26,844 nt of DNA, taken from the NCBI RefSeq assembly GCF_023653455.1, contig NZ_JAKEDR010000030.1, positions 1-26,844 on the forward strand, given 5' to 3'. A program made the position numbers and the translations under genes. This DNA comes from Paraclostridium ghonii (GTDB lineage Bacteria; Bacillota; Clostridia; Peptostreptococcales; Peptostreptococcaceae). The notes under the pieces are model-generated. The model worked only from the letters and a program-made list of their open reading frames with translations, did not search any database and had not been told where the DNA came from. Below are positions 4,343 through 25,737 of the stretch, in pieces. The first letter of the stretch is position 1. Each line of letters starts with the position of its first letter.

Positions 4343-6247
4343 TTATGCCTCCTTAAGTGATTTTTCATTTGCTTCTTCTGGTCTAATATAAGTAGTAACT
4401 AATTCTCTCATAACATTATCAATCAGTTCTACTTCTTCTTTATCTACAATAGACTTTAAAACCTCTAAATGCATCTTGTATCTTTCTGAATTAAAATCTA
4501 TTGGCTTTCCAATAAATATCTTTTTATGCTCAGTATTAGTTAATCCTTCCTCTGACATAAGTAACTCTTCATATAGCTTTTCTCCTGGTCTAAGCCCAGT
4601 AAATTTAATATCAATGTCAACATTTGGCTCAAATCCACTAAGTCTAATTAAATTATCTGCTAAGTCAACTATCTTAACTGGATCTCCCATGTCAAGTATA
4701 AATATCTCTCCACCTTTTGCCATAGCTCCTGCTTGTATAACAAGTTGTACAGCTTCTGGGATTGTCATAAAATATCTTATAATTTCTGGATGAGTGATAG
4801 TTACTGGTCCACCTTCTTCAATTTGCTTTTTAAATAATGGAATAACACTTCCATTGCTTCCAAGAACATTTCCAAATCTAACTGCTACAAATTCTGTTTC
4901 ACTTTTTTCGTTTATAGTTTGTATTATCATTTCTGCTGCTCTCTTTGTTGCTCCCATTATATTGGTTGGATTGACAGCTTTATCTGTAGATATGAGTACA
5001 AATCTTTTAACTTTATATTTATCTGCAAGTTTTGCTACATTTTTTGTACCAAATATATTGTTTTTTATAGCTTCACTTGGACTTTTTTCCATAAGTGGAA
5101 CATGCTTATGTGCTGCTGCATGAAATACTACATCTGGTCTATACTTATTAAATATTTCATCCATACGCTTTTCTTCTCGAATTGATGCTATTATTGTTGT
5201 AAGATTTAAATTTACCCCATATTTTCTCATTAATTCTTGTTGAATTGCATATGCGTTATTTTCATAGTTATCAAGTATTATAAGTTGTTTTGGATTAAAG
5301 CTTGCTACTTGTCTACATAGTTCGCTTCCTATACTTCCTCCTCCACCTGTTACTAGCACTACTTTATTTTGTAAATACTGACTCATTTCAGCTAGATTTA
5401 CTTTTATTGGCTCTCTTCCTAATAGATCTTCAATTTGAACATCCCTGATTTTTTTTATATCTACTTTTCCATCAATAATTTCATATACACCAGGTATTGT
5501 TCTTAATTTACATTTTGTCTTTTTGCAAGTTTCTACAATATATCTTTTTTCTTGTTTACTTATTTTAGCAATTGCTATTATAATTTCATCAATATTATAT
5601 TTTTCTACTATCTTGGTTACATCTTTTATATTTCCTAGAATAGGTATATTATGTATTCTTCTGCCTTTTTTGTTTGCATCATCATCTAATATTCCTATAG
5701 GCTTTTTTAGAAGCTGGGGATTATTTTTAAGTTCTTGTATTACCATATCTCCCGCACTTCCACCTCCTACAATAAGTACATTATAGGTTTTTCCTTTCAA
5801 TCCACTTCTTATTATTACACTTCTTCCTGTTCTATAAAAAAGCCTTGTTCCTCCTGCTAATGATATAGTTAATATTGCATTTAAAATATAAAAATTTATT
5901 GAAAACTTTTCCCCTATAAGTAGGTGTATTAAATAAGTTATAATTATAGATAATGTGCATGCTACTACTATAGCTATTAATTCCTCTTCTCCTGCATATC
6001 TCCATAGACTATGATAGCATCTACAAAGAGATAATGTTATTATACTTATTACAGCATATATCAACATTGCATTTATTGAAATATTTATTTGCAATCCTGG
6101 TGGGTATATCATCCACGCAGATGCAATAAATGACAGTAAGATGCATACTATGTCCACAGCAATTAGTATTAATTGTCTCGTCTTGTACTTACCCAATAGA
6201 GTTTCTAATACACTTGGTTTTTGTGGGGCTACCATTTCAGTTTTCAT
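4343..6247 (-). CDS. Membrane UDP-HexNAc 4,6-dehydratase (PglF/CapD-like polysaccharide biosynthesis protein)
   Basis: This 634-residue protein has four predicted membrane helices (about 26-47, 60-76, 90-111, 118-134). A first Rossmann unit follows (VLIVGGGSAGD, 157-167) and then the catalytic extended-SDR domain with TGGGGSIG (300-307). The active site carries Thr-Asp-Lys (T421, D422, K423) and Met-x3-Lys (M431, K435) instead of the usual Tyr-x3-Lys, as known for PglF and WbpM type 4,6-dehydratases. It would convert UDP-GlcNAc to UDP-4-keto-6-deoxy-HexNAc on the cytosolic face. GGGGGGAG precedes the ATG. It is unrelated to the CapD gamma-glutamyltransferase encoded elsewhere in this window; the shared name is historical. 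Confidence 0.93.
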   Translation of the reverse strand: MKTEMVAPQKPSVLETLLGKYKTRQLILIAVDIVCILLSFIASAWMIYPPGLQINISINAMLIYAVISIITLSLCRCYHSLWRYAGEEELIAIVVACTLSIIITYLIHLLIGEKFSINFYILNAILTISLAGGTRLFYRTGRSVIIRSGLKGKTYNVLIVGGGSAGDMVIQELKNNPQLLKKPIGILDDDANKKGRRIHNIPILGNIKDVTKIVEKYNIDEIIIAIAKISKQEKRYIVETCKKTKCKLRTIPGVYEIIDGKVDIKKIRDVQIEDLLGREPIKVNLAEMSQYLQNKVVLVTGGGGSIGSELCRQVASFNPKQLIILDNYENNAYAIQQELMRKYGVNLNLTTIIASIREEKRMDEIFNKYRPDVVFHAAAHKHVPLMEKSPSEAIKNNIFGTKNVAKLADKYKVKRFVLISTDKAVNPTNIMGATKRAAEMIIQTINEKSETEFVAVRFGNVLGSNGSVIPLFKKQIEEGGPVTITHPEIIRYFMTIPEAVQLVIQAGAMAKGGEIFILDMGDPVKIVDLADNLIRLSGFEPNVDIDIKFTGLRPGEKLYEELLMSEEGLTNTEHKKIFIGKPIDFNSERYKMHLEVLKSIVDKEEVELIDNVMRELVTTYIRPEEANEKSLKEA

Positions 6248-6390
6248 TTAAATCACTCCCCCCTTTTAGTATAATTTTTTAAATTTATATAAAGTTTTTT
6301 ATGTAACATCCGTAATATATATACACAAGGGTGCTACCATAACCCCTAAGCGATAAAATTCAAATTTTCATAATGTTTAATTTTATTAAT

Positions 6391-6418
6391 GCACTAAAAC
6401 TTTCGCCGATTTTAGTGC
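6391..6418. repeat. Inverted repeat upstream of the 4,6-dehydratase gene
   Basis: GCACTAAAA and TTTTAGTGC form a perfect 9-bp stem around a 10-base loop. A T-rich run follows only on the plus strand (6421-6425), so it is not a conventional terminator for the minus-strand genes. The surrounding 240 bases between the first Wzz paralogue and the dehydratase hold no gene that I can support. The stem may be a leader hairpin or an operator. Confidence 0.4.
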
Positions 6419-6487
6419 TACTTTTTATTCTTATTCTTTTTATATAATTATTAAGTACGACATCAATTCCGTTAGCTTTAACTTTTT

Positions 6488-7192
6488 CTAACCTTTCTTT
6501 AGATGTTTTGCCTCTTTATCCTTATGTTCATTAGGTACTACTCCTAGTAGTGGTAATTCTAAGTATTTTTCTATATCTTGTGGTGATTTTATTTTATTAT
6601 CTATATACTCAAGTAAGAAGATAACAAATAAAGATATCATTATACCTAGTACTCCTGCTATTATCACATTCATTATTTTGTTTGGTTTTATAGATATTTC
6701 GGATACAGTAGCTTTATCTATTATTTGAACACTGTTAGCCTTTGTTATTCTTTTAACATTTTTGGTGAATTCTTTTGGTATAGAGTTTGCTATATCAGCA
6801 GCTCTTTGTGGATTTGTATCTTGAACTGATACTGAAATTATTTGAGTATTGTTAACCGATGATACGTTTATTTTTTCTATTATTTCCTCATATCCGCCTT
6901 TTATCCCTATTGTGTTTGCTACTTCATCTAATACTGACTTTGACTTGATTATTTCCCCATAAGTTATTGCTAGCTTTTCAGAAACATTTATTTGATCAGT
7001 TGTCATAATTTCTGTTTCAGGTACTTTGTCACTATTTACTATAAGAGTTGTGTTCGATTCGTAAACTGGACTTAGTACAAAAAAGCTTATAACTGCACTT
7101 ACGATTACTGCTATGGATGTAATTAAAACTATTATCCATAACCTTTTTTTAACAATTTGAAAGTACTCCTTTAAGTGTATAGTCTCCTCCAT
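6488..7192 (-). CDS. Wzz/YveK-type capsule chain-length regulator, orphan paralogue
   Basis: A 234-residue polysaccharide co-polymerase of the Wzz family. It has a cytosolic N-terminus (MEETIHLKEYFQIVKKR), a first membrane helix at about 18-38, an extracytoplasmic alpha/beta domain with VYESNTTLIVN, and a second helix at about 173-195 preceded by the Pro-rich SIKPNK element. A short cytosolic tail of the kind that activates the partner tyrosine kinase follows. GGAGGAGG precedes the ATG. It is the same length as the protein at 9614-10318 and closely similar in both termini, so the two are paralogues. Unlike the other copy, it has no adjacent kinase gene. Confidence 0.9.
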   Translation of the reverse strand: MEETIHLKEYFQIVKKRLWIIVLITSIAVIVSAVISFFVLSPVYESNTTLIVNSDKVPETEIMTTDQINVSEKLAITYGEIIKSKSVLDEVANTIGIKGGYEEIIEKINVSSVNNTQIISVSVQDTNPQRAADIANSIPKEFTKNVKRITKANSVQIIDKATVSEISIKPNKIMNVIIAGVLGIMISLFVIFLLEYIDNKIKSPQDIEKYLELPLLGVVPNEHKDKEAKHLKKG

Positions 7193-7381
7193 TTCCTCCT
7201 CCTTTTCCTGTTTTATACTTTTTTATCCATATTCCTACTTTTTTCTCGATTACGTGATATATATATTACCACTTTAATACATATTTGTATATATTTTCTA
7301 CAAAAGCTTCTTTTTTATTACATATTTCGACATTTTTAAAGTATTTCAACTTATATTATTTAATTTTTTCTTTTTTATATT

Positions 7382-8124: not shown

Positions 8125-8826
8125 TTATATTTCTACTAATTCATTTTGTATAACTAAACTTTTATTTTCTGATGTATACTCCCAATTTGGAGCTTGATGG
8201 TCTTTGCTATATGCTTTTATATCTATTTTTTCTATTTTTTTATCTTTATTCAAATCTTTTATTATTTCTCCTAAAAACTTAATATGACTTAATGCCTTTT
8301 CAGGTTCTTTTATATTTTGTAGGCTTAATGATATTTGAGTTATTCCATTAACTTCTTTTATAGATTCTACTGCATAGTATTGTGGTATGCTCTTTACTTC
8401 TTCTTTTACTGTGTGATATGTTTTAACTTCTATTTGTTGATGATCTATAGGTTTCACAAGTATTTGAATTTTATTTATCTCATATTTAAAATTTTGTGCT
8501 TTTTCTTTGTCATCAAATATAAAAATATTAAAGTTTTTATTCATATCCTTTATTATATTTTTTGAGAGTTGTCCTATTTCCTCCTTATTAAACTTCTTTT
8601 TTTGTAAAACTATAAATGTATTTATTCCATCTTTATCTTCTTGTTTTATAATTTCATAATCATCTTTTGATATGTTTATTTCTGACTTAGAACTCGAGAC
8701 TTTAGATACATAATGTTCTTCTTTTGACTTTAAATCCCCACCCATGAGTGTAAACCCTAATACTACAACTACAGTTAGCGAACATGCGATTGTTACAACA
8801 AACTTTTCATTTTTTTTATAATTCAT
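8125..8826 (-). CDS. Membrane-anchored extracytoplasmic protein of unknown function
   Basis: I do not recognise this 233-residue protein. It has a basic N-terminus (MNYKKNEK), one hydrophobic helix at about 10-28 (an uncleaved anchor or signal), and an otherwise soluble, lysine- and glutamate-rich body of alternating strands and helices. Two segments that look related to each other (about 70-130 and 150-210) may form a tandem alpha/beta repeat. AGGAGG lies before the ATG. A strong terminator separates it from the upstream kinase gene, so with the following secreted protein it may form its own unit. Confidence 0.6.
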   Translation of the reverse strand: MNYKKNEKFVVTIACSLTVVVVLGFTLMGGDLKSKEEHYVSKVSSSKSEINISKDDYEIIKQEDKDGINTFIVLQKKKFNKEEIGQLSKNIIKDMNKNFNIFIFDDKEKAQNFKYEINKIQILVKPIDHQQIEVKTYHTVKEEVKSIPQYYAVESIKEVNGITQISLSLQNIKEPEKALSHIKFLGEIIKDLNKDKKIEKIDIKAYSKDHQAPNWEYTSENKSLVIQNELVEI

Positions 8827-14835: not shown

Positions 14836-14909
14836 CACAAAAAAGACTAGGTTACAAGTTTGGAGAAGGATTTCTGTGTATGTTGCAGCGACATTTACCG
14901 CTTTCTTTA
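14836..14909 (-). repeat. Degenerate tandem copy of the 3' half of the grd-terminal hairpin
   Basis: On the minus strand this stretch repeats the 3' half of the adjacent hairpin with divergence. It shares GTAAATGTYGCTGCA at one end and the AACCYRGTCTTTTTTGTG end with its U-run, while the stem sequence between them has diverged. It lies one period (about 76 bases) downstream in the direction of transcription and has no matching 5' arm of its own. Confidence 0.7.
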
Positions 14910-14911
14910 CA

Positions 14912-15039
14912 CAAAAAAGACCGGGTTATCAGTTGGGAGGGTTTGGGTTTGATGGTGCAGCAACATTTACAAGCATCTTCTCAGCTTGTATGAAGCAAAA
15001 CATCTAACCCAAACCCTAGCCCCCAGATAACCCAGTCTT
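14912..15039 (-). terminator. Long hairpin terminator after grdD (divergent member of the grd hairpin family, copy D)
   Basis: On the minus strand AGACTGGGTTATC...AGGGTTTGGGTT pairs with AACCCAAACCCT...GATAACCCGGTCT over roughly 36 bases, followed by TTTTTT. Inside is the family module: TTTTGCTTC, a 3-bp helix (CAT/ATG), a TT bulge, a 6-bp helix (ACAAGC/GCTTGT) and a 9-base loop, closed by TGTTGCTGC. The U-run directly after the outer stem makes it the probable terminator of the grd operon. Confidence 0.8.
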
Positions 15040-15076
15040 CAACCGTTTCCATGGCAAGGATTCGTTTTATTTTTTA

Positions 15077-16225
15077 TTACTTAGCAGTATATCCTGCATC
15101 TAGAAGCATCTTAACACACGCTTCTCCTTTTCCATCAGCAACAAGTACTATAGGCCCCGTGCATCCCATACCACTTTCTGCATAGATGCCATTTTTCCAT
15201 AAAACTTTAACCGCATCTTCTAAATCCATTATATCTACACCAGATATTTGATGAGTAACAACTTCTTTGGCCGGCATAGCTACTTCCTCATCATTATCTT
15301 TCTTAACTTCTTTCTTAGTTAAAGCAGCTATAATATCGTCATATTTAGCATTTTTAACATTTTTAAATTCGCCTTTTGATACTTGAGTCACATCACCTTT
15401 AACAACGTCATAAGCGTATCTCAATGCATTTGCAACAACTGGAGAACCAGATGCTCTAGATAATATTAATATCTTTCTATCATAGTCTTCACCTACACCA
15501 GGACCATATCCAAATCCTTGAGCTTCATAATCTCCACCAGTAGTAAATGAAGAGAATACTTTCATAAATATATTTCCACTTAAAGTATCAGTAACCATAA
15601 CATCTGGAGCCCCACATAATAAGTCATTTCCTCTCATTACGCAACCACCATCTGCTCTAACTGATTGTGCAAAAGATATATCGTATCCATTTGCTTGTAA
15701 ATCTTTTAAAGCTTTTTCTACTTGTCTAGCACCGTCAACATTTAATATACCAACAGTAGGATTTTTAATTCCTATAGACTTAGCTGTAGATATACCGTAG
15801 ACAGCATTTCTAACCATAGCTTCTATTCTGTTTGTAGCACTAGTTCCTGTAGTAGTAGCAAGTATCATTTCTTTACCTCTACCTGGAGTTATAACTCTAC
15901 CAACTGTAGAAACTCCTATAGGAAAGTTGTAATGCATAGTTACACAAGCATCTATGTAACCTGAGTCTAATAACTCTTCCATTTTAGAATGCATTTTACT
16001 TTCATCATTAACTTCAACAACCTCTAGCTCAGTTTCAACTTTAGGTCCTATTAAAACTATATCAAATAAATTTGACTTAGCTAAGTGAGCTCCTTTAACT
16101 AAATTTTCAGTTCCATGCTCACTACCTAATGTAGTCAAACCTATTCTAACTTTTTTACCAAATTCGCCGCTTTCAATAGCATTTGCTATATCTAAAAAAG
16201 TTTCGGCAATAATCTTTTTAGGCAT
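15077..16225 (-). CDS. grdD: Glycine reductase complex component C, subunit alpha (GrdD)
   Basis: Protein C takes the Se-carboxymethyl group from GrdA and releases acetyl phosphate by phosphorolysis of an acetyl thioester. GrdD resembles PlsX-type phosphate acyltransferases. KIRIGLTTLGSEHG-like and GIGVEDY-type segments are visible (VRIGLTTLGSEHG, GPGVGEDYD). Near the C-terminus, MGCTGP carries Cys355, a likely candidate for the thioester cysteine described for component C of related clostridia. I choose ATG 16225 (382 residues), because GGGGAG lies 8 bases before it; an in-frame TTG 18 bases upstream has no such site. It is the last gene of the operon and is followed by a long hairpin terminator. 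Confidence 0.94.
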   Translation of the reverse strand: MPKKIIAETFLDIANAIESGEFGKKVRIGLTTLGSEHGTENLVKGAHLAKSNLFDIVLIGPKVETELEVVEVNDESKMHSKMEELLDSGYIDACVTMHYNFPIGVSTVGRVITPGRGKEMILATTTGTSATNRIEAMVRNAVYGISTAKSIGIKNPTVGILNVDGARQVEKALKDLQANGYDISFAQSVRADGGCVMRGNDLLCGAPDVMVTDTLSGNIFMKVFSSFTTGGDYEAQGFGYGPGVGEDYDRKILILSRASGSPVVANALRYAYDVVKGDVTQVSKGEFKNVKNAKYDDIIAALTKKEVKKDNDEEVAMPAKEVVTHQISGVDIMDLEDAVKVLWKNGIYAESGMGCTGPIVLVADGKGEACVKMLLDAGYTAK

Positions 16226-16273
16226 AACCAGATCTCCCCTCAAAATGAATTTTTATAAAATTCTATACGTCTT

Positions 16274-17815
16274 CTATTTCTGCTCTTCTATTAACATATC
16301 TTGAGCTAATTTCTTCATAGATTGTGCTATAATTTTTTTGATTTCTTCTTTAGAAACAGCACCTGATTCTTCTTCTACTCCTTGATTTCTCTCAACTATG
16401 AAAGAAACTCCGTCAAATAAGTTAGTCATTCTTCCTAAGAATAAACTTCCCTTACCAACTACCATAGCTCTGTTTTTATCTCCAGAAGTTAAATCATCTA
16501 TACAGAATCCTATATATGGAACTCCTGAAGGTATATGTCCTTGAGTTGGAGCCCAACCTGGTATACCTTTTTCACTTACAAAGTTCTTTAATTCTTTTTT
16601 CTCTAAATCTCCACGCTTAACAGCAAGAGCACCTATCATTTTGTAGTTAGCTTCTGGAACATCTCCAGCTCCAGCAGGCTTAGTTATATCTGGGTTTTGC
16701 ATTTCAACTGAGTAAACATCAACATCAGTTATTTTTAAGTTAGCCCTATCAAGTCCAGTAGTTATTAATGCAGTCATAACAGCTTGTGGAGAAGATCCTG
16801 TACCAACATTATGCTTTCCTGTTAAATCAGTTCTTATTATTGGGTTAACTCCATCATTTTCAGAAACTAAAACAGCAAATCCACCAACAACGTCTTCTAA
16901 AACTGGAAGACCTTTTTTTACATGGTCTTTAGCGTTCATTCCAAGTTTAGCACTAGCTCCACCTGCAACTACCATAACATTTTTATATACTCCTGATTTA
17001 ACAAGTGCAGCAGCATTTATTAAAGCATGAGTAGGAGCAGCACAGAAACCTCTTGTATCTGATCCTGAAGCATTTTGAAGTCCAGCCATCTCAGCTATAG
17101 ACTTAGCAAAGTTTCCTCCACCTCTTTGGTTCATATCTCCACAAGCTTCTTCTGAACACTCTATTACATAATCTATATCTAATGGATTAATATTTTCTTT
17201 TCTTACTAATTGTATAGCCGAAACAACACCTGAAGCTTTAACAACTAAGTTTTCAAACATTGTATGAGCGTTTAAGTTAACATCAACATCATGAGCTCTC
17301 TTAACGTATCCAATTAATTGTCCATCATGATATAATCCTTCAGCATGGTGTGCATCTATTAATTCATTTGCATCATCTATATTATGACCCTTAACTTTTC
17401 CAAAGAATGGAGCAAGTTCTGGGTAATTATTTTCAAAGTCAGGTTTTATATTATTAACAAAATCTTCTTTTAATTTAACTAAGTCAAAAGCATCGCATAT
17501 TTGCATCATTACTAAAAATTCATCTTGTGGCATTATTTCTCCACGCTTACCATCTCTTTTCCCTTCCATTTTATGTTCGCACCAAGGAAGAGATATTTCC
17601 CTTAATTCTTCTGGTCTATTGTTTCCTATGTAAACTTGATTTGGTATATAATTTACTACTTCTTCATAACTTCTTATATGTTTTGTAACTTCTTTTAAAA
17701 ATTCTGATTCTGGATGTGTTTCTCTTTCAACAGCACAAGTAGTACCATTTTGAACTATCATATCTGGCGTGTGAACTAAAATGTAACTAGCACCTTTTAA
17801 AACTGGAAATGTCAT
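16274..17815 (-). CDS. grdC: Glycine reductase complex component C, subunit beta (GrdC)
   Basis: This FabH-like (beta-ketoacyl synthase III fold) subunit of protein C works with GrdD to make acetyl phosphate from the Se-carboxymethyl selenoether on GrdA. The N-terminus is MTFPVLKGASYILVHTPDMI. The synthase-like core includes CSEEACGDMNQRGGGNFAKS, DTRGFCAAPTHALINA and VMVVAGGASAKLG. I take ATG 17815 (513 residues) because GGGGG lies 8 bases upstream; the frame extends back to TTG 17863 without a ribosome site. It is separated from grdB by 322 bases holding a terminator-like hairpin and the hairpin-family copy A, so its level may be set separately. Confidence 0.94.
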   Translation of the reverse strand: MTFPVLKGASYILVHTPDMIVQNGTTCAVERETHPESEFLKEVTKHIRSYEEVVNYIPNQVYIGNNRPEELREISLPWCEHKMEGKRDGKRGEIMPQDEFLVMMQICDAFDLVKLKEDFVNNIKPDFENNYPELAPFFGKVKGHNIDDANELIDAHHAEGLYHDGQLIGYVKRAHDVDVNLNAHTMFENLVVKASGVVSAIQLVRKENINPLDIDYVIECSEEACGDMNQRGGGNFAKSIAEMAGLQNASGSDTRGFCAAPTHALINAAALVKSGVYKNVMVVAGGASAKLGMNAKDHVKKGLPVLEDVVGGFAVLVSENDGVNPIIRTDLTGKHNVGTGSSPQAVMTALITTGLDRANLKITDVDVYSVEMQNPDITKPAGAGDVPEANYKMIGALAVKRGDLEKKELKNFVSEKGIPGWAPTQGHIPSGVPYIGFCIDDLTSGDKNRAMVVGKGSLFLGRMTNLFDGVSFIVERNQGVEEESGAVSKEEIKKIIAQSMKKLAQDMLIEEQK

Positions 17816-17888
17816 ATTATTTACCCCCAATGTATATATGTTATTATTTTTACTTAAATCCAATTATGATGAAAGACTTGATGATTTT

Positions 17889-17928
17889 ATAAAAAATAGG
17901 TGGGTAAAGTTAACCCACCTATTTAATT
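17889..17928 (-). terminator. Terminator-like hairpin inside the grd operon, before grdC
   Basis: AAATAGGTGGGT and ACCCACCTATTT form a perfect 12-bp stem with a 7-base loop. On the minus strand it is followed by TTTTTTAT. It has all the marks of an intrinsic terminator but lies between grdB and grdC, so partial termination could lower grdCD expression relative to grdA and grdB. It lies downstream of the long hairpin A, between that and the grdC ribosome site. Confidence 0.75.
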
Positions 17929-17987
17929 TTTATTAAAATGTTTTATCCTCAAATATGCCAAGCCGCAGGCTTCTAACGTGAAGTCTG

Positions 17988-18134
17988 TGACTTATAAATG
18001 AGTTTTTCATGACGATAAAAGGGAGTAAGTTGTAGTATTGACGAAACACTTCAAGTCCGATCTTTTTAGGACTTGGTGTGAAGGAAACACTATAACTTAC
18101 TCGCTCCCAAGTCAATTATAAAACTCTTAAGTCA
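17988..18134 (-). repeat. grd hairpin family, copy A (between grdB and grdC)
   Basis: This is a ~147-base imperfect hairpin. The outer arms pair in blocks (TGACTTA, GAGTTTT, TGAC, GGGAG, then TAAGTTGTAGTATT with one wobble). The conserved module at 18040-18085 reads, on the plus strand, GACGAA, ACAC, TTC, AAGTCC, 10-base loop, GGACTT, G, GTGT, GAAGGA. Two small hairpins flank it on the left (AAGCC-GCA-GGCTT; AAGTC-TGT-GACTT). The plus and minus open frames crossing it do not look like genes. Confidence 0.85.
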
Positions 18135-18137
18135 TAA

Positions 18138-19481
18138 TTAAGCGTTAGCCATTATATCCTTTAAAGTTATATCTTTTTCAAATACTGTTTGACCATCAAC
18201 CTCAGTAGTTAATGCAACTAAACATTTTTCAACTAACTTTCTTCTTAAAGCTTTTTCCTCAGCTGGATCTAACTTAGGATTTCCAAGAGGATGAGGTATA
18301 GCTATAGCTGGAACTATTCTGTTAGCCCCAACAGTTAAAGATATAGGTACTACTGTACAGATATGAACAACTGGAAGACCAGCTCTTTCTATCTCTTTTA
18401 CCATCGTTGCACCGCAACGAGTACAAGTGCCTCAAGTAGAAGTTAGTATTACAGCATCAACACCAGCTTCTATTAACTTTTGAGCATACTCTGCAGCATA
18501 TTTCTTAGAACTTGCAACAGCAGTTCCATTACCTGTAGTTGAGTAGAATAACTCATGTAAGGAACCTATAGCCCCTTCTTTTTCTAAATCTCTTAAAACA
18601 TCTACTGGTAAAACTCTATCTGAGTCTAAGTTACAATAAACTGGGTCAAACCCACCATGAGCAGTCTCATAAGTTTCTTCAGTTAAATCATTAACTCCAG
18701 CTATAGAGTACTCTCCATATTTAGATGCAGAAGAAGATTCTATTCTATCTGGGTTTCCTTTAGGAACTATCCCCCCAGAAGTAACTAGAGCTATTTTAGC
18801 CTTAGCTAAATCTTTTATAGCTGGCTGTGGGTCAACTCTATCAAAGTTAGGCATTGGATATTCAGTTACGAAATCTTCACCTTTTATTTTCTTTAATAGC
18901 ATATCTACAGCTCTTTTTGAACCTCTTTTCTCAGCGAAGTAGTTAACTCTTATTCCCCTTTGTATATAACCTTCTTCAGCTGGAGATCCTATTTCTTCTC
19001 CATTCGCTATTTTTTTAGCTAATTTAGATATCTTTGGAAGAGCCTTTCTCATACCTGCAGCAGAGTCAGATGTTTCTACTATATATATATCCTTCTTGAA
19101 CATATCTGCTCCTGGATTTTCAACATACATTCCTGTTAAAGCTGGTATATTTAACTCGTCTTTAACGAATTTAGTTATTGTTCCTGCAGCAACCCCGTAT
19201 CTTCCTGCATTGAACGATGGTCCAGCTATGAATAATTGTGGATTAAAGCTTTTAACCATTTCTAATACTTCTTGGCTAGCAAGCTCCATATTTTCTCCGA
19301 AATAACTGTCCCCACAAACTACAGTTCCAACTACTTCTATTTCATCCCCTAATAACTTATTTAATTGTAAACTTATTGGAGGTAATTTTTCAGCTATATG
19401 TGGTTTCGTATCAGCTTTTTCTTCTCCTCCAATCCCTGCAAAGAATTGGTTTATATAATGAACTACTTTTATCTTTTCCAT
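18138..19481 (-). CDS. grdB: Glycine reductase component B selenoprotein GrdB (in-frame UGA = Sec350)
   Basis: The frame from ATG 19481 meets TGA at 18434-18432 and continues in frame to TAA at 18138, for 447 residues if the TGA is read as selenocysteine. The context is LTST-Sec-GTCTRCGAT, the Sec-x-x-Cys-x-x-Cys motif of the GrdB/PrdB family, and Sec falls at residue 350. This subunit binds glycine (as a Schiff base with the pyruvoyl group of GrdE) and forms the carboxymethyl-selenoether passed to GrdA. AAAGGGG precedes the ATG. A 6-bp hairpin follows the TGA. Read as two proteins (349 and 88 residues) neither half would be complete. Confidence 0.96.
18405..18434 (-). promoter_or_regulatory. 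UGA selenocysteine codon and bacterial SECIS-like hairpin of grdB
   Basis: Twelve bases after the TGA (18432-18434), CGTTGC and GCAACG form a perfect 6-bp stem closed by a GGT loop. Bacterial SECIS elements sit at this distance and need a short apical loop containing G-U for SelB binding, which fits. The hairpin is also part of the coding sequence. Confidence 0.75.
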
Positions 19482-19507
19482 CTTTATCTCAACCCCTTTT
19501 GATTTAA

Positions 19508-19987
19508 TTAGGCATTATATTTGCAGAATTGACCCCTTATATCGTTCATTTCTTCAACGATTTCATCAACTTCAAGAACCATTTCCATCATACTTATTTG
19601 ATCTTCATAAACTGATTCGTCAAATAATTCTTTCATTTCTGGTTCAACAACATGATAAACAGCCAATCCTAACTCAACACCAGCAAGTGGTCCAGCAAAA
19701 GTTGGATCTCCAGCAGTTACTGTTTCAGCTGCAAGACCTGCAGCTTCGGCTTCAGCAGCACCTAGTAAAACCACAACATTTTCAGCACCGAATTTTTCAG
19801 TAGCATCTTTAACTCTGTTTTGGTTTTCTAAGTCCATAGCCCCAGCAGCAGTTCAGACAAAACATTCTGTTGAAGCAAAAACTATTTCAGTATTTTCTAC
19901 AGTGTTTACACACTCTTCTATCGCAGGTCCCGGAATACCGTCACGGTCACCTATGATTATGATCTTTTTATTACTTAATAAGCTCAT
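19508..19987 (-). CDS. grdA: Glycine reductase component A selenoprotein GrdA (in-frame UGA = Sec45)
   Basis: GrdA is the small selenoprotein that carries the carboxymethyl group from protein B to protein C and is re-reduced by thioredoxin. The frame starts at ATG 19987 (AAGGAG upstream), meets TGA at 19855-19853 in the context [20 protein letters not shown], and continues to TAA at 19508, for 159 residues with Sec45. The Cys-x-x-Sec pair (Cys42, Sec45) and the following TAAGAMDLE are diagnostic. The N-terminal strand [11 protein letters not shown] is also typical. The 109-residue frame starting at MDLENQ is only the part after the UGA. I see no clear SECIS stem after this UGA, only weak pairing around it. 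Confidence 0.97.
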
Positions 19988-20091
19988 AATATATCTCCTT
20001 TTCCCTTTTTAATATTGTCATTTTATACCTTTTTAAATTTACACTCTTTAAAAACTCTTTTCTTTAAACATATTATTCTCAGCTATATTAT

Positions 20092-20232
20092 GAAACAATT
20101 GTATTTACGAATGTGGCGTAGTGACGTTTAAACATTTGTTGACGTAGCACTTAAAGACCGCTCTTTTTAGGTCTTTGTGCGAAGGAAACAATGTTTAAAT
20201 GGCATGAAGCGACCCCATCGTATTACAGTTTC
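20092..20232 (-). repeat. grd hairpin family, copy B (between grdE and grdA)
   Basis: Outer arms pair in blocks (GAAAC, TGTA, TACGA, then TTTAAACATT-GTT near the core). The module at 20141-20186 reads, on the plus strand, GACGTA, GCAC, TTA, AAGACC, 10-base loop, GGTCTT, T, GTGC, GAAGGA. Compared with copies A and C, one helix pair changes from A-T to G-C and another from T-A to A-T, so pairing is kept. Its left boundary reaches the grdE stop codon. Together with 100 AT-rich bases it fills the 244-base grdE-grdA gap. Confidence 0.85.
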
Positions 20233-21518
20233 TAATACCCCTTAGCTGTTAAGAATCCAAATCCTGTTTCATTAGTAGCTCCTGTTATTACTTGTATCTC
20301 AGCTTCTATAGATCCATCTTCTCTTAAAGACCCAGAAGCTCCACCAGCTATAACATCAGCAACTTCAACATGACCTATAACTCTATCCATCTTAGGTAAT
20401 ACTACAACTTGGTTAGCATTTCCCCCAGTTACAACAGCATCTGCTTTAGCATCTGCATCTGCTAATGATTGAGATGCTCCGTCTCTACCTGCATATTCAT
20501 CTGTAACTATAACAGTTTTAATACCTTGACCTTCTATTTTCTTGCAGTTCATTATAAGGTCTGTATCTGGGTTTCCAAATCCTTCTTGAGATACTATAAC
20601 AGCATCTAATCCTAATTGCTTACATAATTTAGCAGTCCAGTTAGAAGATCTTTCTTTATCTGCTAGGTATACGTTTTCATTAGTTATAATAACTCCCATA
20701 AAGTTTATTTCTTTTCCATGTTGTAAATATAAATCTTCAACTACAGAGTTGTTCATATGAACATAACTTGGGTTTTTATCACAAGCAGAAACACAATTCC
20801 CACTTACTATAGCTCCATCCATTAATTCAGTTGGATATAATAAAGTAGGTACTATTTGTTTAGCGTCAACTCCGTAAACGTATGTGTCATGTAGTAATCC
20901 TTGAGTTTGAAGCATATATACATATCCTACTTTTGGAAGTTCTGGATACTGTGCTACTGCATCTAATAACGGCTTAGTTTCATAAGTTATTACTTCATCT
21001 GGAGTTAAGTTTCTAGCAACTTCTCCTAAATAGATAGCAGATTTAAACCCTATCATTCTAACAGCTTTTTCATGGTCGTATTGTTTTAATCCATCTATTG
21101 GTTCAGCTATAACAACAACGTTGTTTAACTTAGAGAATGGAGTATACTCAGCTCCAGGGCCAGTCATATCTATTATACCTTCTTGGAAACCAACTATTTT
21201 ACCAGTTGTTACGACTCCAACATTTTTAAGTGCATGAGTTCTACCTTCTCCAACAGTGTCTACTTTAGATATAACACCTGGGAATATTCCCCCATTACCT
21301 TCAACTTTGACTCTCGGTTCTATAACGTCTTTAACTGGTATTATTCTAACGCTTTCTCCTGGACGAACTATATCTAAGTCTATTGATTTTATATGTTCGT
21401 CTCCACCAATTTCTTTTAACATCTCTTCTTTGTTGATGTATAATACTGAATCTTTAACTTCTGTTACTGCTCCAAATTGTACATCTTTTATAAAGATTTT
21501 CCCTAACTCAAGACGCAT
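20232..21518 (-). CDS. grdE: Glycine reductase component B proprotein GrdE (alpha and gamma subunits)
   Basis: A 428-residue proprotein that self-cleaves to give two subunits of protein B. The cleavage site is visible in VSGNCVSACDK at Asn241-Cys242, the same place as reported for Clostridium sticklandii GrdE, where the Cys becomes the pyruvoyl group that binds glycine. The N-terminal part runs MRLELGKIFIKDVQFG to Asn241, and the C-terminal part continues through VTDEYAGRDG and GGASGSLREDG. GGGGG precedes the ATG by 9 bases. It lies between trxA and grdA, 61 bases from trxA; the spacer contains a small GGGGATATAATCCCC hairpin. Confidence 0.96.
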   Translation of the reverse strand: MRLELGKIFIKDVQFGAVTEVKDSVLYINKEEMLKEIGGDEHIKSIDLDIVRPGESVRIIPVKDVIEPRVKVEGNGGIFPGVISKVDTVGEGRTHALKNVGVVTTGKIVGFQEGIIDMTGPGAEYTPFSKLNNVVVIAEPIDGLKQYDHEKAVRMIGFKSAIYLGEVARNLTPDEVITYETKPLLDAVAQYPELPKVGYVYMLQTQGLLHDTYVYGVDAKQIVPTLLYPTELMDGAIVSGNCVSACDKNPSYVHMNNSVVEDLYLQHGKEINFMGVIITNENVYLADKERSSNWTAKLCKQLGLDAVIVSQEGFGNPDTDLIMNCKKIEGQGIKTVIVTDEYAGRDGASQSLADADAKADAVVTGGNANQVVVLPKMDRVIGHVEVADVIAGGASGSLREDGSIEAEIQVITGATNETGFGFLTAKGY

Positions 21519-21579
21519 ATTGGCACCCCCTATTTTGACCTTAATTTATTTTAACGGGGATATAATCCCCATTAATGGC

Positions 21580-21897
21580 TTACACATACTTCTTTATCAT
21601 AGCTTCTATGTTAGAAACTGTAGCATCATCTTTCGTTACTTCATCTATTTTAGCTCCATCCTTGTATATAGCTATAGTTGGAAGCCCTAAAACCTTCTCT
21701 CTTATAGCGACTCTTCTAGCTTTAGTAGTATCGAATTTACAGAACTTTATATTTTCTCCATACATCTCTGCAAATCTTTCTATATCTGGAAGTAATGCTT
21801 TACAAGGTTCACAACCTTGACTCCAAAAATCTACTAACACTAACCCTTCAGCTTCTAGTACTTCTTGATCGAATGTATTTTTTTCTAATGCTATCAT
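21580..21897 (-). CDS. trxA: Thioredoxin of the glycine reductase system
   Basis: This 105-residue thioredoxin reduces the GrdA Sec/Cys pair after each turnover. The active site reads WSQGCEPC (C29, C32), so the usual CGPC is replaced by CEPC and Trp-Cys-Gly by Gln-Gly-Cys. This GC-x-PC form is known from grd-linked thioredoxins of amino-acid-fermenting clostridia. The conserved Pro of the cis-Pro loop is in GLPTIAIY, and FDTTKARRVAIREKV precedes it. GGGGGAT lies before the ATG. It lies 143 bases after trxB; the spacer carries the palindrome AATGTTTAATT/AATTAAACATT region near 21984-22006. Confidence 0.94.
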   Translation of the reverse strand: MIALEKNTFDQEVLEAEGLVLVDFWSQGCEPCKALLPDIERFAEMYGENIKFCKFDTTKARRVAIREKVLGLPTIAIYKDGAKIDEVTKDDATVSNIEAMIKKYV

Positions 21898-21983
21898 TTC
21901 ATTATCCCCCTTATTGGATTTTATATATTTTAATATATTTTTAATATATTAATAGCTATTTCAGTTCAAGTACCGTTCATAAT

Positions 21984-22006
21984 TAATGTTTAATTAAATT
22001 AAACAT
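21984..22006. repeat. Palindrome between trxB and trxA
   Basis: AATGTTTAATT is followed after one base by AATTAAACATT, a perfect 11-base inverted repeat with almost no loop. No U-run follows, so it is not an obvious terminator. It may be an RNA stability hairpin or a protein-binding palindrome. Confidence 0.45.
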
Positions 22007-22040
22007 TATCCCCTGATAACCTTAATAAACGTACTTTCAA

Positions 22041-23003
22041 TTAGCAATTACTCGCTTTTTCTTCAAAATTTTCTTCTACATATTTTTCAGCTATTACGGC
22101 AGCTATAGCTCCATCAGCAGTTGCTGTAACAACCTGTCTTAATGATTTTACTCTACAATCCCCTGCAGCAAATACACCTGGTATATTTGTTAACATATTA
22201 TCATCTGTTTTGATGTATCCATAATCATCCATATCTACTTTCCCTTTGAATAATTCAGTCTGAGAATCAAATCCTACAAATATGAATATTCCCATAGTTC
22301 CATCTTCTTCATCTGCAAAATATTCATTAGTTTCACCTGTTTGAGTATTTCTAAATACTACTGATTCAACTAATCCATCACCTTTTATTTCATCTATAAC
22401 TGTATCTAGCATAAATTCTATTCTTTCATTGGCTCTTGCTTTATCTTCTATAGATCCAGCACATCTTAAACCTTGTCTCCTATGAACTATAGTAACTTTT
22501 CTAGCAAACTTAGTTAAGTATAATGCTTCTTCTATAGCACTATCTCCTCCTCCAACTACGAATACTTCGAAGTCTTCGAAAAAGTCTGCATCACATGTAG
22601 CACAGTAAGAAACACCTTTACCTGTTAATTCTTTTTCTCCTGGGCATCCTAATTTTTTAGGAGTAGCTCCAGTAGCTATTATAACAGTTTTAGCTCTGTA
22701 CTCACCTTTTTCACCTTTTAATACTTTTATATTTCCTTCTAATTCAGTATCTACTATAGTATCTTTAACTATTTCAGCCCCAAATTCTTTGCATTGATCT
22801 ACCATTCTAGCTATTAGACTAGGTCCAGTAGCATTTTCAATAGATCCTGGATAGTTAGCAACTTCGTGAGTTATAACTATTTGACCACCAGTTTTTCCTT
22901 TTTCAAGTATTAAAGTCTTCATTTTGGCTCTTGCACCATAAAGTCCAGCTGCAAGTCCTGCTGGTCCACAACCTATTATGACTATGTCATATAAATTTTC
23001 CAT
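22041..23003 (-). CDS. trxB: Thioredoxin reductase of the glycine reductase system
   Basis: A 320-residue low-molecular-weight flavoprotein that passes electrons from NAD(P)H through FAD and its disulfide to TrxA. The FAD motif GCGPAGLAAG (11-20), the redox-active CATC (134-137) followed by Asp, and the nucleotide motif GGGDSA (151-156) are visible. HRRQGLR corresponds to the NADPH-phosphate-binding HRR-x3-R segment, and GVFAAGDC binds FAD near the C-terminus. The ATG is preceded by GGGGG and GAGG. Position between grdX and trxA is the standard grd order, so it is dedicated to glycine reductase, though general thiol metabolism is possible too. Confidence 0.95.
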   Translation of the reverse strand: MENLYDIVIIGCGPAGLAAGLYGARAKMKTLILEKGKTGGQIVITHEVANYPGSIENATGPSLIARMVDQCKEFGAEIVKDTIVDTELEGNIKVLKGEKGEYRAKTVIIATGATPKKLGCPGEKELTGKGVSYCATCDADFFEDFEVFVVGGGDSAIEEALYLTKFARKVTIVHRRQGLRCAGSIEDKARANERIEFMLDTVIDEIKGDGLVESVVFRNTQTGETNEYFADEEDGTMGIFIFVGFDSQTELFKGKVDMDDYGYIKTDDNMLTNIPGVFAAGDCRVKSLRQVVTATADGAIAAVIAEKYVEENFEEKASNC

Positions 23004-23044
23004 GACCTCAACCCCCTATTTTTATTATGTATATACACCAAAGC

Positions 23045-23416
23045 CTATGCGTATTGCATTCTTTGGATTGTATTTCTTATTATATCAAAATCGATTACTC
23101 TGAAATCGTCTAATACTCTTTCAGTCCACATAGGAGTTTGTTTATTATTTTTAAATTTTTGAGCTGTTTCTATTGCATCTTCAATTAAGTTTAATGAATT
23201 TGTATCTAAAGATTTCCCCTTTTTCAATATGACTGTACGATATGGCGTTTCATTGGGTTTTACGCTCCCATATAGCGGATGTGATAATAATTCATACCCC
23301 TTATGAACTAAATCTCTACATTTTTTTAATGTTCCTATATAGTCAGTATCTAACGTTAAAACCTCTTTATCTTTAACGTTTTCCTCTATGATAGGATTGT
23401 TAGTGATTATTAACAT
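23045..23416 (-). CDS. grdX: GrdX family protein
   Basis: This 123-residue protein is always found at the head of grd operons and has no assigned biochemical role. The N-terminus MLIITNNPIIEEN and the region GYELLSHPLYGSVKPNETPYRTVIL are typical of the family. It appears soluble, with no signal or membrane helix. The ribosome site is weak (GTGAG about 9 bases before the ATG). It is the first gene after the riboswitch terminator and is followed 41 bases later by trxB. Confidence 0.92.
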   Translation of the reverse strand: MLIITNNPIIEENVKDKEVLTLDTDYIGTLKKCRDLVHKGYELLSHPLYGSVKPNETPYRTVILKKGKSLDTNSLNLIEDAIETAQKFKNNKQTPMWTERVLDDFRVIDFDIIRNTIQRMQYA

Positions 23417-23454
23417 GTGTCTACACTCACTTTCAAAATTTCTTTTGTTAAACT

Positions 23455-23490
23455 AAAAAACAGGAAACTAAGTCCCCACTTAGTTCCCTG
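23455..23490 (-). terminator. Intrinsic terminator of the glycine riboswitch
   Basis: CAGGGAACTAAGT and ACTTAGTTTCCTG pair around a GGGG loop (13 bp, one G-U), followed by TTTTTT on the minus strand. It lies just after the glycine aptamer and before grdX, so it is the expression platform. Glycine binding would be expected to prevent its formation and turn the operon on, but the antiterminator pairing was not traced. Confidence 0.9.
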
Positions 23491-23494
23491 TCAA

Positions 23495-23645
23495 AATGTC
23501 TTTCAGAGATCCGTCCAGTTAAAGTCCTTTTACCTGAGAATTTCATTTAAATCCTTTTGGGTTGAATTTAAATTTGTCCCTTCGGTCATCTCTAACATCC
23601 CCATATTAGAGATAGTCTCCTTTAACCTTCAAACGGTTTTATTTT
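23495..23645 (-). promoter_or_regulatory. Glycine riboswitch (single aptamer) controlling the grd operon
   Basis: On the minus strand the aptamer core is plain: GTTAAAG (P1), GGAGACTATCTCTAA, GACCGAAGGGAC, TCTCAGGTAAAAGGAC and CTTTAAC (P1'), then GGACGGATCTCTGAAAGA, which resembles the remnant "ghost" partner seen with singlet glycine aptamers. Only one full aptamer is present. It senses the operon's own substrate, glycine. The plus-strand open frame over this region is not a gene. Confidence 0.92.
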
Positions 23646-23683
23646 TTAATTTTGTCTAGCCCTTTGGTGCTTTTCTTAATTAC

Positions 23684-23712
23684 ATTATATATACCTTGTT
23701 AAATATATACAA
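23684..23712 (-). promoter_or_regulatory. Promoter of the grd operon
   Basis: On the minus strand TTGTAT (23707-23712) and TATAAT (23684-23689) are exactly 17 bases apart. Transcription would start near 23677, about 30 bases before the glycine aptamer. The stretch from here to the pepF end holds only this promoter, AT-rich sequence and hairpin copy C. Confidence 0.7.
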
Positions 23713-23925
23713 TACTTTTTTAAAACATTTATTTTATGTTTTTTTGTTGATATTAGCCATTTTTTGCTAAACCGTTGATATAGCTATAATCTTTTGAATA
23801 ACTTTCTACTATAGTTTTTTTCTATAAATTAATTTTTTATCTTTCAATTTATATTTATTCTGATTTTTTTTAAAGTATGTATTTTTTATTTTCGAAATAC
23901 TTCAAGTAACTTCGCCTCCACCTAC

Positions 23926-24041
23926 TATGATTTTAAAACAGCTAAGGGTGTTTATTTAGTATTGACGTAACACTTCAAGTCCGCGAACTTTAGGACTTTG
24001 TGTGAAGGAAATACTAAATAAACACCCTACTACCTAAATCA
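23926..24041 (-). repeat. grd hairpin family, copy C (between pepF and the grd promoter)
   Basis: This is the clearest copy. AGGGTGTTTATTTAGTATT (23945-23963) pairs perfectly over 19 bases with 24010-24028, with looser pairing continuing outward (TGATTT near both ends). The module reads, on the plus strand, GACGTA, ACAC, TTC, AAGTCC, 10-base loop, GGACTT, T, GTGT, GAAGGA. It starts directly after the pepF stop codon, but no U-run follows on the minus strand, so it is not a classical terminator. Confidence 0.88.
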
Positions 24042-24042
24042 C

Positions 24043-25737
24043 TTACATATTCTTATCATCTATAGATTTTAAATATTCATCTATACTTTCAATAACACTA
24101 CTTACACAACCTTTTTCAAAAGGAGAAATTAGGTTAGCATATTGAACAATATCTAAGAAAGACTTTGTTCCACCTATTCTACAAATATTTAAATAGTCTT
24201 GATATCCTTTAACTCTATCAACTTGCATCTTCTTCCAGAATTGAAGTGCACAAATTTGAGCTAGTGTGTAATCTATATAGTAAAATGGATTTTTAAATAT
24301 GTGACCTTGTTTAAACCACCATCCACCTCTTTCTAGAAAATCATTGCCTTCATAATCCTTATGTGGTTGATATTTCTTCTCTAAATCTCTCCAAACTAAT
24401 TTTCTTTCATCTTTAGTCATATTTGGATTTTCATATATTATATGTTGGAACTCATCAACTAAAACTCCATAAGGTATAAATTTAATAGCACTACCTAAAT
24501 GAACAAATTTATATTTATCAGTATCTTCTTTAAAGAAAAGTTCCATCCAAGGCCAAGTTATAAATTCCATACTCATAGAGTGTATTTCACAACTTTCATA
24601 TGTAGGGAAATTTATATCTGGAATTTCAATCCATCTTGACATATAAACTTGAAATGCATGTCCAGCTTCATGAGTTAAAACATCTATATCATCTGCTGTT
24701 GAGTTAAAGTTTGAGAATATGAATGGAGCTTTATATTCTGGTATATAAGTGCAATACCCTCCAGCACCTTTTCCTTTTTTAGTTTCTAAGTCCATTAGTT
24801 CATGTTCAATCATATATTTAAAGAACTCATCAGTTTCCTTTGAAAGTTCTGAGTACATTAAAATACCATTTTTCATTATAAATTCTGAGTCTCCCTTAGG
24901 TTTTGCGTTTCCACTGTTAAACTCAAAGTTTTCATCAAAGTATCTAAATTGCTGAAGTCCTAATCTTTCCTTTTGTCTTTGGTATAATTTATTTGCAACA
25001 GGAACTATATATTCGCTTACTTGCTTTCTAAAGTTTTCAACCATATCTGCATTATAATCAGTTCTTAGCATTCTTATATAACCAAGTTCTACGAAATTTT
25101 CAAAGCCTAGTTTTTTAGCCATTTTATCTCTTACTTTTACTAATTTATCAAATAAGTCATCAAATTTTTTCTCGTTTCCTTCAAAGAATCCGTAATATGC
25201 TTGTGATGCTTTTTCTCTTTCATCTCTAAATGGAGATGTCATGAAAGGACCTAATCCTGAAAGGTTTCTTTCCTCTCCATCAAAAGGAATTTTAGCAGAT
25301 GCTAAAAGTTTAGTATATTCTGATGCCAGTTTATTTTCTTCCTGTAACTCAGCTATTATTTCTTTAGAAAATGCTTGTATTGAGTAATCAGCTATAGACA
25401 TAAATTGTTTACCTAACTCTTTAGTAAGTTCATCTTTAAATCTAGACTCCACTATAGCTTTATAAAATAATGAGTTTAATTCTTCATAGTGTGGTCCATT
25501 TTCATCCCAATAATCTTTCTCTTTTGAGTAAAATTCATCTTCCGTATTTATACTGTATCTTATAGATACTAATGTCGCCATACTGTCTATATGATTTCTT
25601 AGCTTATTAATTTCATCTATATTTTTTCTAATCTCTTCATAATTTTGGCTATTTCCCATATTTTTTATTAGATTTTCAAATTTAATTTTTATATTTTCAT
25701 AATTAGGTCTTTTGTATTTAAATTCATTAAATTTCAT
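24043..25737 (-). CDS. M3 family oligoendopeptidase (PepF type)
   Basis: A 564-residue cytosolic zinc metallopeptidase that cleaves short peptides. The zinc motif is HEAGH (356-360) within VLTHEAGHAFQ, with the third ligand Glu expected in the downstream YESCEIHSMSMEF segment. GGYCTYIP and the FNSTADDIDVLTHE approach are typical M3B features. There is no signal peptide. GAGGTGAT precedes the ATG. It probably completes degradation of imported peptides and so supplies glycine and other amino acids to Stickland metabolism; that link is inferred from its position beside grd. Confidence 0.93.
   Translation of the reverse strand: MKFNEFKYKRPNYENIKIKFENLIKNMGNSQNYEEIRKNIDEINKLRNHIDSMATLVSIRYSINTEDEFYSKEKDYWDENGPHYEELNSLFYKAIVESRFKDELTKELGKQFMSIADYSIQAFSKEIIAELQEENKLASEYTKLLASAKIPFDGEERNLSGLGPFMTSPFRDEREKASQAYYGFFEGNEKKFDDLFDKLVKVRDKMAKKLGFENFVELGYIRMLRTDYNADMVENFRKQVSEYIVPVANKLYQRQKERLGLQQFRYFDENFEFNSGNAKPKGDSEFIMKNGILMYSELSKETDEFFKYMIEHELMDLETKKGKGAGGYCTYIPEYKAPFIFSNFNSTADDIDVLTHEAGHAFQVYMSRWIEIPDINFPTYESCEIHSMSMEFITWPWMELFFKEDTDKYKFVHLGSAIKFIPYGVLVDEFQHIIYENPNMTKDERKLVWRDLEKKYQPHKDYEGNDFLERGGWWFKQGHIFKNPFYYIDYTLAQICALQFWKKMQVDRVKGYQDYLNICRIGGTKSFLDIVQYANLISPFEKGCVSSVIESIDEYLKSIDDKNM

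Follow-up and report, generated by a model that had tools for sequence, protein, structure and literature searches.

Long hairpin repeats at gene ends in Paraclostridium: a possible REP-like family first met in a glycine reductase operon

The window analysed here, a stretch of 26,844 nt from the draft genome of Paraclostridium ghonii (contig NZ_JAKEDR010000030.1), carries a glycine reductase (grd) operon, in and around which lie four hairpin elements that we name copies A to D. A sequence-only reading had presented them as a feature of that operon; we find instead that they belong to a family of long hairpins with about 40 places in this genome, placed preferentially after stop codons, in which stems turn over freely and the fold is kept. 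The features concerned are listed below, with gene names checked against Pfam and NCBIfam; the plus strand is the one that bears the purine-rich loops of the hairpins, and the grd mRNA corresponds to the minus strand.

14836–14905, plus strand: partial D-like sequence directly left of copy D, in which, by direct reading, AGACTAGGTTACAAGTTTGGAG resembles AGACCGGGTTATCAGTTGGGAG.
14912–15041, plus strand: copy D, of a sister subfamily, after grdD.
15077–16243, minus strand: grdD; copy D follows its 3′ end.
17988–18134, plus strand: copy A, between grdB and grdC; covariance-model match at 18024–18101 (E 4.8e-16).
18138–19481, minus strand: grdB, split by a selenocysteine TGA, with SECIS_4 at 18394–18431; copy A follows its 3′ end.
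20092–20232, plus strand: copy B, between grdE and grdA; model match at 20125–20201 (E 3.3e-14), its end 30 nt from the grdE stop codon.
20232–21518, minus strand: grdE; copy B follows its 3′ end.
23926–24041, plus strand: copy C, after an M3-peptidase (pepF-like) gene; model match at 23948–24025 (E 2.4e-15), its end 17 nt from the stop codon of that gene.
24043–25737, minus strand: M3-family oligoendopeptidase gene; copy C follows its 3′ end.

All four hairpins were located and folded as had been claimed, and within the window they do share one orientation relative to the genes. On the plus strand their folds are far better than those of shuffled sequences (z-scores of −6.14 for copy A, taken as 17995–18134, −5.63 for B, −8.31 for C and −7.82 for D), with none of 200 shuffles folding as well in any case; on the minus, or mRNA, strand the corresponding z-scores are −6.36, −3.15, −7.49 and −8.60, again from 200 shuffles each, of which two equal the fold of copy B. 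No match to copies A–D was found among 4227 Rfam models at E up to 1, and a simple terminator scan, with loops limited to 8 nt, calls nothing at these sites. Rfam matches elsewhere in the window comprise a glycine riboswitch upstream of grdX (23484–23636, minus strand; 76.7 bits, below the gathering score of 110), the SECIS_4 element in grdB, and a weak match to mir-71 that we take for chance. Between copy A and grdC there is also a separate inverted repeat, AAATAGGTGGG...CCCACCTATTT (17894–17924), which occurs in all five aligned species and is a possible candidate for a second attenuator.

The element measures approximately 100–150 nt and is built of nested helices. Read 5′ to 3′ on the purine strand, it consists of a variable outer stem, GACGAA opposite GAAGGA, a 4-bp helix (ACAC/GTGT), a TT bulge, a stem of 6–7 bp and an apical loop; the module first described as common to copies A, B and C (GACGWA/GAAGGA, ACAC/GTGT, bulge, 6–7 bp stem and a loop of about 10 nt) is present as stated. 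The strand needs a correction: the GA-rich loops had been described simply on the plus strand, which is the complement of the grd mRNA, and it is the complement of the gene's mRNA that bears the conserved GACGAA/GAAGGA loops. We read this internal loop as G·A, A·G, C-G, G·A, A·A and A·G, and across 99 copies from the genus the non-Watson-Crick states of its pairs are mostly purine-purine. Thirteen of 23 three-base apical loops are GNA and six are AAA; of the 75 apical loops longer than five bases, 27 by our own count start with G and end with A.

Copies of this module are dispersed through the source genome (G000; a draft of 3.53 Mb in 374 contigs) and five other genomes of the genus (G001–G005, of which G003 is incomplete). 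In G000 a search pattern was matched exactly at A, B and C alone, and the places with one to three mismatches included further hairpins; at three mismatches the pattern is often matched by chance (26 matches forward and 20 in reverse, compared with 15 and 19 for the control). We then relied on covariance models, one (R1) built from 12 copies and a second (R2) from 103 R1 matches in 83 fetched sources; L numbers below denote the stretches fetched around matches. R2 yields 40 matches in G000 at E up to 0.1, two of which are the reverse strand of listed hairpins, leaving 38 distinct places, the weakest of them perhaps decayed. In the other five genomes it gives 32, 28, 16, 14 and 4 matches, the first three figures each including one reverse-strand duplicate; all copy numbers are lower bounds, as 150 first-look candidates were scored per genome. 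Together with three places of the copy D type, approximately 41 are known in G000, the four of the window included.

In wider searches, R1 matched 6 of 60 genomes (G000 included) and R2, under stricter filters, 6 of 71 genomes of the family, in both cases only members of this genus, with no R2 match in the 65 family genomes outside it. Orders beyond the family's own were covered by a tight exact pattern alone, which among 84,980 species genomes occurs only in Paraclostridium benzoelyticum (four stretches) and [Eubacterium] tenue (two), a lower bound, since records near the window may be excluded there. We rejected carriage by plasmids or phages: a copy A query against plasmids, a G005-copy query against phages and plasmids, and the exact pattern in IMG/VR all gave no match. 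Nor did we find such a family described for Paraclostridium in the literature, in which subscription papers were thinly covered.

Copy D had been proposed as a fourth copy with divergent sequence. It does fold with a similar layout; it is not, however, of the A/B/C type but a member of a sister subfamily, whose own copies are scattered and often lie within a terminator-like hairpin. The D core pattern occurs at 19 places in the genus at up to two mismatches, against one for the reversed control; by reading, 13 of these fold like D, with differing outer stems and some orthologues, and six are chance matches. Copy D itself has AAGAC..GTCTT as its outer stem, followed on the mRNA strand by a T-run, and, judging from its sequence, this copy appears to be an element enclosed in a terminator-like hairpin. 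A run of four to six A just before the outer stem on the plus strand, equivalent to a T-run after it on the mRNA strand, is found in 6 of the 13 D-type copies.

The outer stem of the main type is, as had been claimed, variable and self-complementary, but it is also longer than first drawn: it spans at least 16 bp as modelled, and some copies outside the window possess a further closing motif. A motif resembling GCGAAG...CGAGC on both sides is seen in 13 of 30 copies in G000, 6 of 24 in G001, 4 of 11 in G002 and 1 of 7 in G005 (a loose pattern, counted without a chance control), and position-by-position base counts beyond the 16-bp stem reveal a GCGAAG-like tendency to one side and a stretch rich in C to the other. 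Beyond this motif the complementarity of the flanks averages 23.1, against 18.6 by chance (standard deviation 4.8), with 6 of 30 copies above the 95% point of the null and three above its 99% point; in a few copies the outermost stem is terminator-like. The 5′ arm is G-rich, with G/(G+C) of 0.79 in the 99 copies against 0.58 in 178 terminator-like stems. It is also rich in G and T on either strand (280 G-C against 55 C-G pairs, and 652 T-A against 411 A-T, in the 99 copies of all genomes). One G005 copy (L137, 5636–5757) has some 45 extra bases in its apical part that are themselves small-hairpin-like (GCAACGGGCGAAGCCGTTGGC), which looks as if another repeat had landed there.

The compensatory base changes claimed between the window's copies are correct, and they also hold in a 12-copy MAFFT alignment that was not fitted to the structure: 90.2% of its cells are paired, against 66.5% when shuffled, and its covariation score is 0.598 against 0.189, a value that none of 500 shuffles reached. 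Across the 103 aligned matches, 101 of them distinct, standard pairs fill 95.5% of 2750 cells, against 62.5% when shuffled, and the covariation score is 0.779, against 0.189 for shuffled and at most 0.109 for slid controls. This larger alignment was fitted to the model structure and includes orthologues, and so leans towards structure; moreover, on one of five measures, the count of pairs showing two-sided changes (26), the observed value was attained in 26 of 500 shuffles.

Inheritance is vertical at many loci. For at least 21 of the 30 G000 copies, one or more of the other genomes has an orthologue, as judged by flank matches within the fetched stretches, and the other nine may have orthologues too, since only the DNA around matches was compared. 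Between G001 and G004, the flanks of which are 91–99% identical, 17 orthologous copies provide 272 stem pairs: 196 are the same, 44 have changed on both sides to another Watson-Crick pair, 25 on one side, and 7 otherwise (194, 35, 23 and 4 of 256 when an out-of-register locus, g13, is omitted). Twelve loci compared between G000 and G001 give 131 unchanged, 36 two-sided, 23 one-sided and 2 other among 192 pairs, with one locus, gB, out of register. Since two-sided compensatory changes are so many between orthologues with nearly identical flanks, resident copies are held to the fold. The changes are uneven, some loci being identical and others having almost new stems; in 17 of 29 orthologue pairs, chosen for clean register and gradual change, 25 of 34 two-sided changes are transitions. 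Letters in the loops are more constant than those in the stems (26 of 204 changed, against 127 of 544, both including g13). Donor copies were rejected as the source of the new stems: none was found among the 99 copies, the best matches of changed loci (10–13 of 16) being no better than those of random arms.

Conserved internal loops within a freely varying outer stem had been taken to suggest a selected RNA. Some force does maintain the fold, and it may act at the level of RNA or of DNA. We had counted G-T against A-C states as a strand test, and dropped it as evidence for DNA: the 54 G-T and 41 A-C on the plus strand of the 99 copies are matched by 55 and 42 in 180 terminator-like hairpins of the same genomes, a ratio so alike that the test says nothing on RNA versus DNA. 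One-sided changes in the 17 chosen orthologue pairs divide 11 to 10.

Position was scored for the 99 copies with fetched DNA, in element orientation and with a gene defined as an open frame of at least 60 codons, orthologues not being independent. A minus-strand gene to the right has its stop codon no more than 60 nt from the modelled stem in 19 of 30 copies in G000, 18 of 24 in G001, 16 of 24 in G004, 9 of 11 in G002, 4 of 7 in G005 and 3 of 3 in G003; a left-hand stop is that close in 4, 5, 5, 2, 1 and 0 copies, respectively. In G000 the stem ends 12–32 nt from the stop in 15 of the 19 copies within 60 nt, and outer parts of the element can be nearer. Seen on the mRNA strand, the hairpin thus tends to start shortly downstream of the stop codon that ends the upstream gene. 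The 25 G000 copies with clear neighbours comprise 17 flanked by (−,−) genes, 5 by (+,−), 3 by (+,+) and none by (−,+), five more being flagged or incomplete. This placement of copies at gene ends in a preferred orientation is new here. Orientation also tracks the direction of replication (11 of 15 and 9 of 13 in G001, 13 of 14 in G005, with the halves supported by GC skew), which may be a by-product of gene orientation.

No functional class is evident among the host genes. Neighbours that score over curated cut-offs include groEL, RNase R, NifU, formate-tetrahydrofolate ligase and a MATE exporter; SelB-type and topoisomerase-III-type neighbours are partial frames below the cut-offs. The earlier proposal of a grd-specific device that sets subunit ratios is not supported, given these other hosts and the absence of copies A, B and C from some congeners. 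Three further observations concern the surroundings of individual copies. In L138 (G005, ~6377–7243) an element follows a recT-type gene with a second one nearby, perhaps in a prophage. Stretches with a tRNA-SeC gene (L142, 9719–9815; L162, 2842–2938) hold an element whose G000 orthologue (L032) follows a SelB-type gene. In L044 (1599–3071, minus strand) a below-cut-off match to a MADS2 defence methyltransferase lies beside one copy.

In the grd operon, copy A is full in G000 and missing from G001, G002 and G005; G004 keeps a remnant, left by a deletion between ACTTA repeats. G000, G001 and G004 have both copy B and copy C, and G002 and G005 have neither; the G001 and G004 orthologues of B carry compensatory changes, and C in G004 has a different stem and is rearranged into partial tandem repeats. 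Close to site C, some 4 kb of extra DNA separates grdX from the pepF-like gene in G004, G001 and G002 (L121, L122 and L123, respectively) and is absent from G000 and G005. At another locus the element occurs in G000 and G004, and G001 has a clean junction without it; because G000 is the more distant (flanks 84–96% identical, against 91–99%), a loss in G001 is likelier than two gains.

Alike copies are also found where the flanks are unrelated. Five hairpins of G005 agree in 86–89 of 92 letters; the two in L140 share 86 of 92 with those of L139, L160 and L185, and we detected no flank similarity between this pair and those three at E 1e-3 over 800 nt on either side. Some spread without flanks in G005 is thereby tentatively supported. 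No clean syntenic empty site for these copies was found in four relatives. L140 also holds another dispersed repeat of roughly 200–520 bp (~6135–6653 and 8402–8770), with matches of 82–89% in all four genomes searched. Among the options first offered for the hairpins, a small mobile repeat fits best, in view of the scattered copies and of the alike copies with unrelated flanks, but no family of insertion sequences (IS) or miniature inverted-repeat transposable elements (MITEs) could be identified. The scatter of a known IS-end or MITE family at random sites in both orientations, which had been named as grounds for abandoning the idea of a selected RNA, is seen only in part: the copies are scattered, and neither their sites nor their orientation looks random.

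The explanation towards which we tentatively lean, although it does not quite command half of our belief, is that of a genus-specific family of long gene-end hairpin repeats, comparable to repetitive extragenic palindromes (REPs), that probably acts on the 3′ end of the upstream mRNA. The element would spread, or would once have spread, as a DNA hairpin recognised by its structure, by means of an enzyme yet to be found. Once in place, a copy would give the mRNA of the upstream gene a long hairpin shortly downstream of its stop codon, where it could shield the 3′ end from exonucleases and, if a U-tract follows as at copy D, might form part of a terminator; in the grd operon the hairpins would delimit grdE, grdAB and grdCD segments. 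A role at mRNA 3′ ends is plausible.

Several observations weigh against this explanation. GNA loops and the GCGAAGC hairpin are very stable in DNA, and the purine-purine and GNA loops suggest that the strand opposite the mRNA is the one that folds, which sits poorly with a purely mRNA role. U-tracts are not clearly enriched in the main family: a T-rich 8-mer (at least six T) occurs within 60 nt downstream of 17 and upstream of 13 of 30 G000 copies, and in 44% of random 60-mers. The orientation bias is partly confounded with replication direction, and the three (+,+) copies of G000 and one (−,+) copy of G005 depart from it. No driver is apparent: Y1_Tnp (PF01797), the domain of REP transposases, is found in three of six genomes, whole only in G001 and G004 and as two short pieces in G000, and was not found in G002, G005 or the incomplete G003; we rejected a REP transposase as the sole driver, as it is not in all carrier genomes. 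The one clean presence/absence site has no target-site duplication. Finally, the two L140 copies are a segmental duplication (94% over 795 nt upstream), and the three other alike G005 copies share 69–218 nt of left flank (218 nt between L160 and L185, 96 nt between L160 and L139). On account of these shared flanks we hold the idea of a REP-like family less firmly, and give more weight to an immobile RNA element.

Such an element, acting in cis in processing, 3′ stabilisation or internal termination, would descend from the ancestor of the genus and owe its variable stems to ordinary compensatory evolution; we regard this as doubtful but as deserving serious attention. It would account directly for the orthologues of at least 21 of 30 copies, the placement after stop codons, the copies within terminator-like hairpins and the common flanks of part of the alike G005 copies, and it has a precedent in the clostridial 3′ stem-loops that are tied to transcript ratios (PMC4423207, PMC9045158, as far as their accessible text goes). 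It is harder to reconcile with alike copies at places without flank similarity, with loops whose form seems to favour folding of the complement of the mRNA, with the lack of clear U-tract enrichment and with functionally diverse hosts.

We think it unlikely that the hairpins are functionless palindromes that correct themselves, their arms kept complementary by quasi-palindrome template switching and their persistence a matter of chance. Between close relatives, two-sided changes do outnumber one-sided ones, clustering in bursts at certain loci and lacking at others, new stems arise without a donor among the copies compared, and the sequence flanking copy A on the left looks like an inverted echo of the end of grdB (score 31, against a null 95% point of 28). 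Nevertheless, self-correction should erase the internal loops too, which stay purine-purine in most copies, and it leaves position and orientation unexplained. A bolder proposal, which we consider a long shot, makes the family the targets of an undescribed clostridial enzyme for single-stranded DNA that reads the purine-purine loops and the bulge rather than sequence, and that places or exchanges hairpins at gene ends; such targets would be attC-like or REP-like with free stems, and served by no known integrase or REP transposase. A recombination site working as integron attC does, its folded strand complementary to the coding strand and recognised after the stop codon by structure and extrahelical bases, is most improbable: post-gene placement, free stems, the TT bulge, conserved non-canonical loops on the strand opposite the mRNA and a clean loss at one locus are in its favour, but no integron integrase (TIGR02249) exceeds the curated cut-off in any of the six genomes, weak sub-cut-off matches also occur in 14 of 14 control genomes, no cassette-like array was noticed (no dedicated search was made) and the R″ and R′ boxes were not recognised by eye.

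Whichever explanation holds, stem turnover with a kept fold and kept loops at orthologous loci of close relatives amounts to a natural experiment on the retention of hairpins at gene ends, in which the alternatives are selection on RNA, selection on DNA and hairpin-templated repair. If the elements act on mRNA ends, dozens of genes, of groEL, RNase R, formate-tetrahydrofolate-ligase and glycine reductase types among others, would be regulated in one shared manner; should the elements instead be recognised as folded DNA, the enzyme responsible has yet to be found.

Among known systems, the likeness to integrons is one of logic: the bottom strand of attC folds into a palindrome with extrahelical bases (PMC3053210, in its accessible text), as the purine strand may do here, and we rejected the integron as a fit for want of an integrase over the cut-off. 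A MITE of the terminal-inverted-repeat type does not fit either, as stem sequences differ between most loci and one clean site shows no target-site duplication. Clostridial processing stem-loops and internal terminators resemble the present hairpins in lying in operon gaps at gene 3′ ends: in C. cellulolyticum the folding energy of 3′ stem-loops correlates with transcript ratios, 28 of 33 being without a U-run (PMC4423207), and internal terminators set the ratios of ABC-importer components (PMC9045158). The accessible parts of these two papers describe them as separate structures and mention no dispersed family with a common core. Stem-loop repeat families named from other clostridia, such as the C. 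perfringens family Clop-1 and the C. tetani family Clot-1, are also described as intergenic structured repeats (PMC2267715, accessible part).

The closest parallel is with REPs. From the accessible text of the sources cited, these are palindromes of 20–40 bp with heterogeneous stems and an unpaired GTAG or CGTC tag at one end (PMC3733652), usually in more than 100 copies (PMC2817692); the E. coli enzyme requires a bulge in the stem, mismatches or bulges there matter for recognition (PMC8266576), and CGTC repeats exist without a dedicated transposase (PMC3733652, PMC8266576). In E. coli, REPs that lie no more than 15 nt from a stop codon have been reported to lower translation or stall ribosomes (PMC12306157, accessible part), and the Paraclostridium hairpins likewise come soon after the stop, although their modelled stem is mostly 12–32 nt away. 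No GTAG or CGTC tag was recognised in base counts by position outside the stem, which is not a dedicated tag test. Both groups are dispersed intergenic palindromes near gene ends with free stems, but the 38 main-type places of G000 fall below the copy number of REPs, and the elements are approximately 100–150 nt long, with nested helices and several conserved internal loops. The Paraclostridium family is REP-like in habit, and not in size or enzyme nor, as far as base counts show, in tag.

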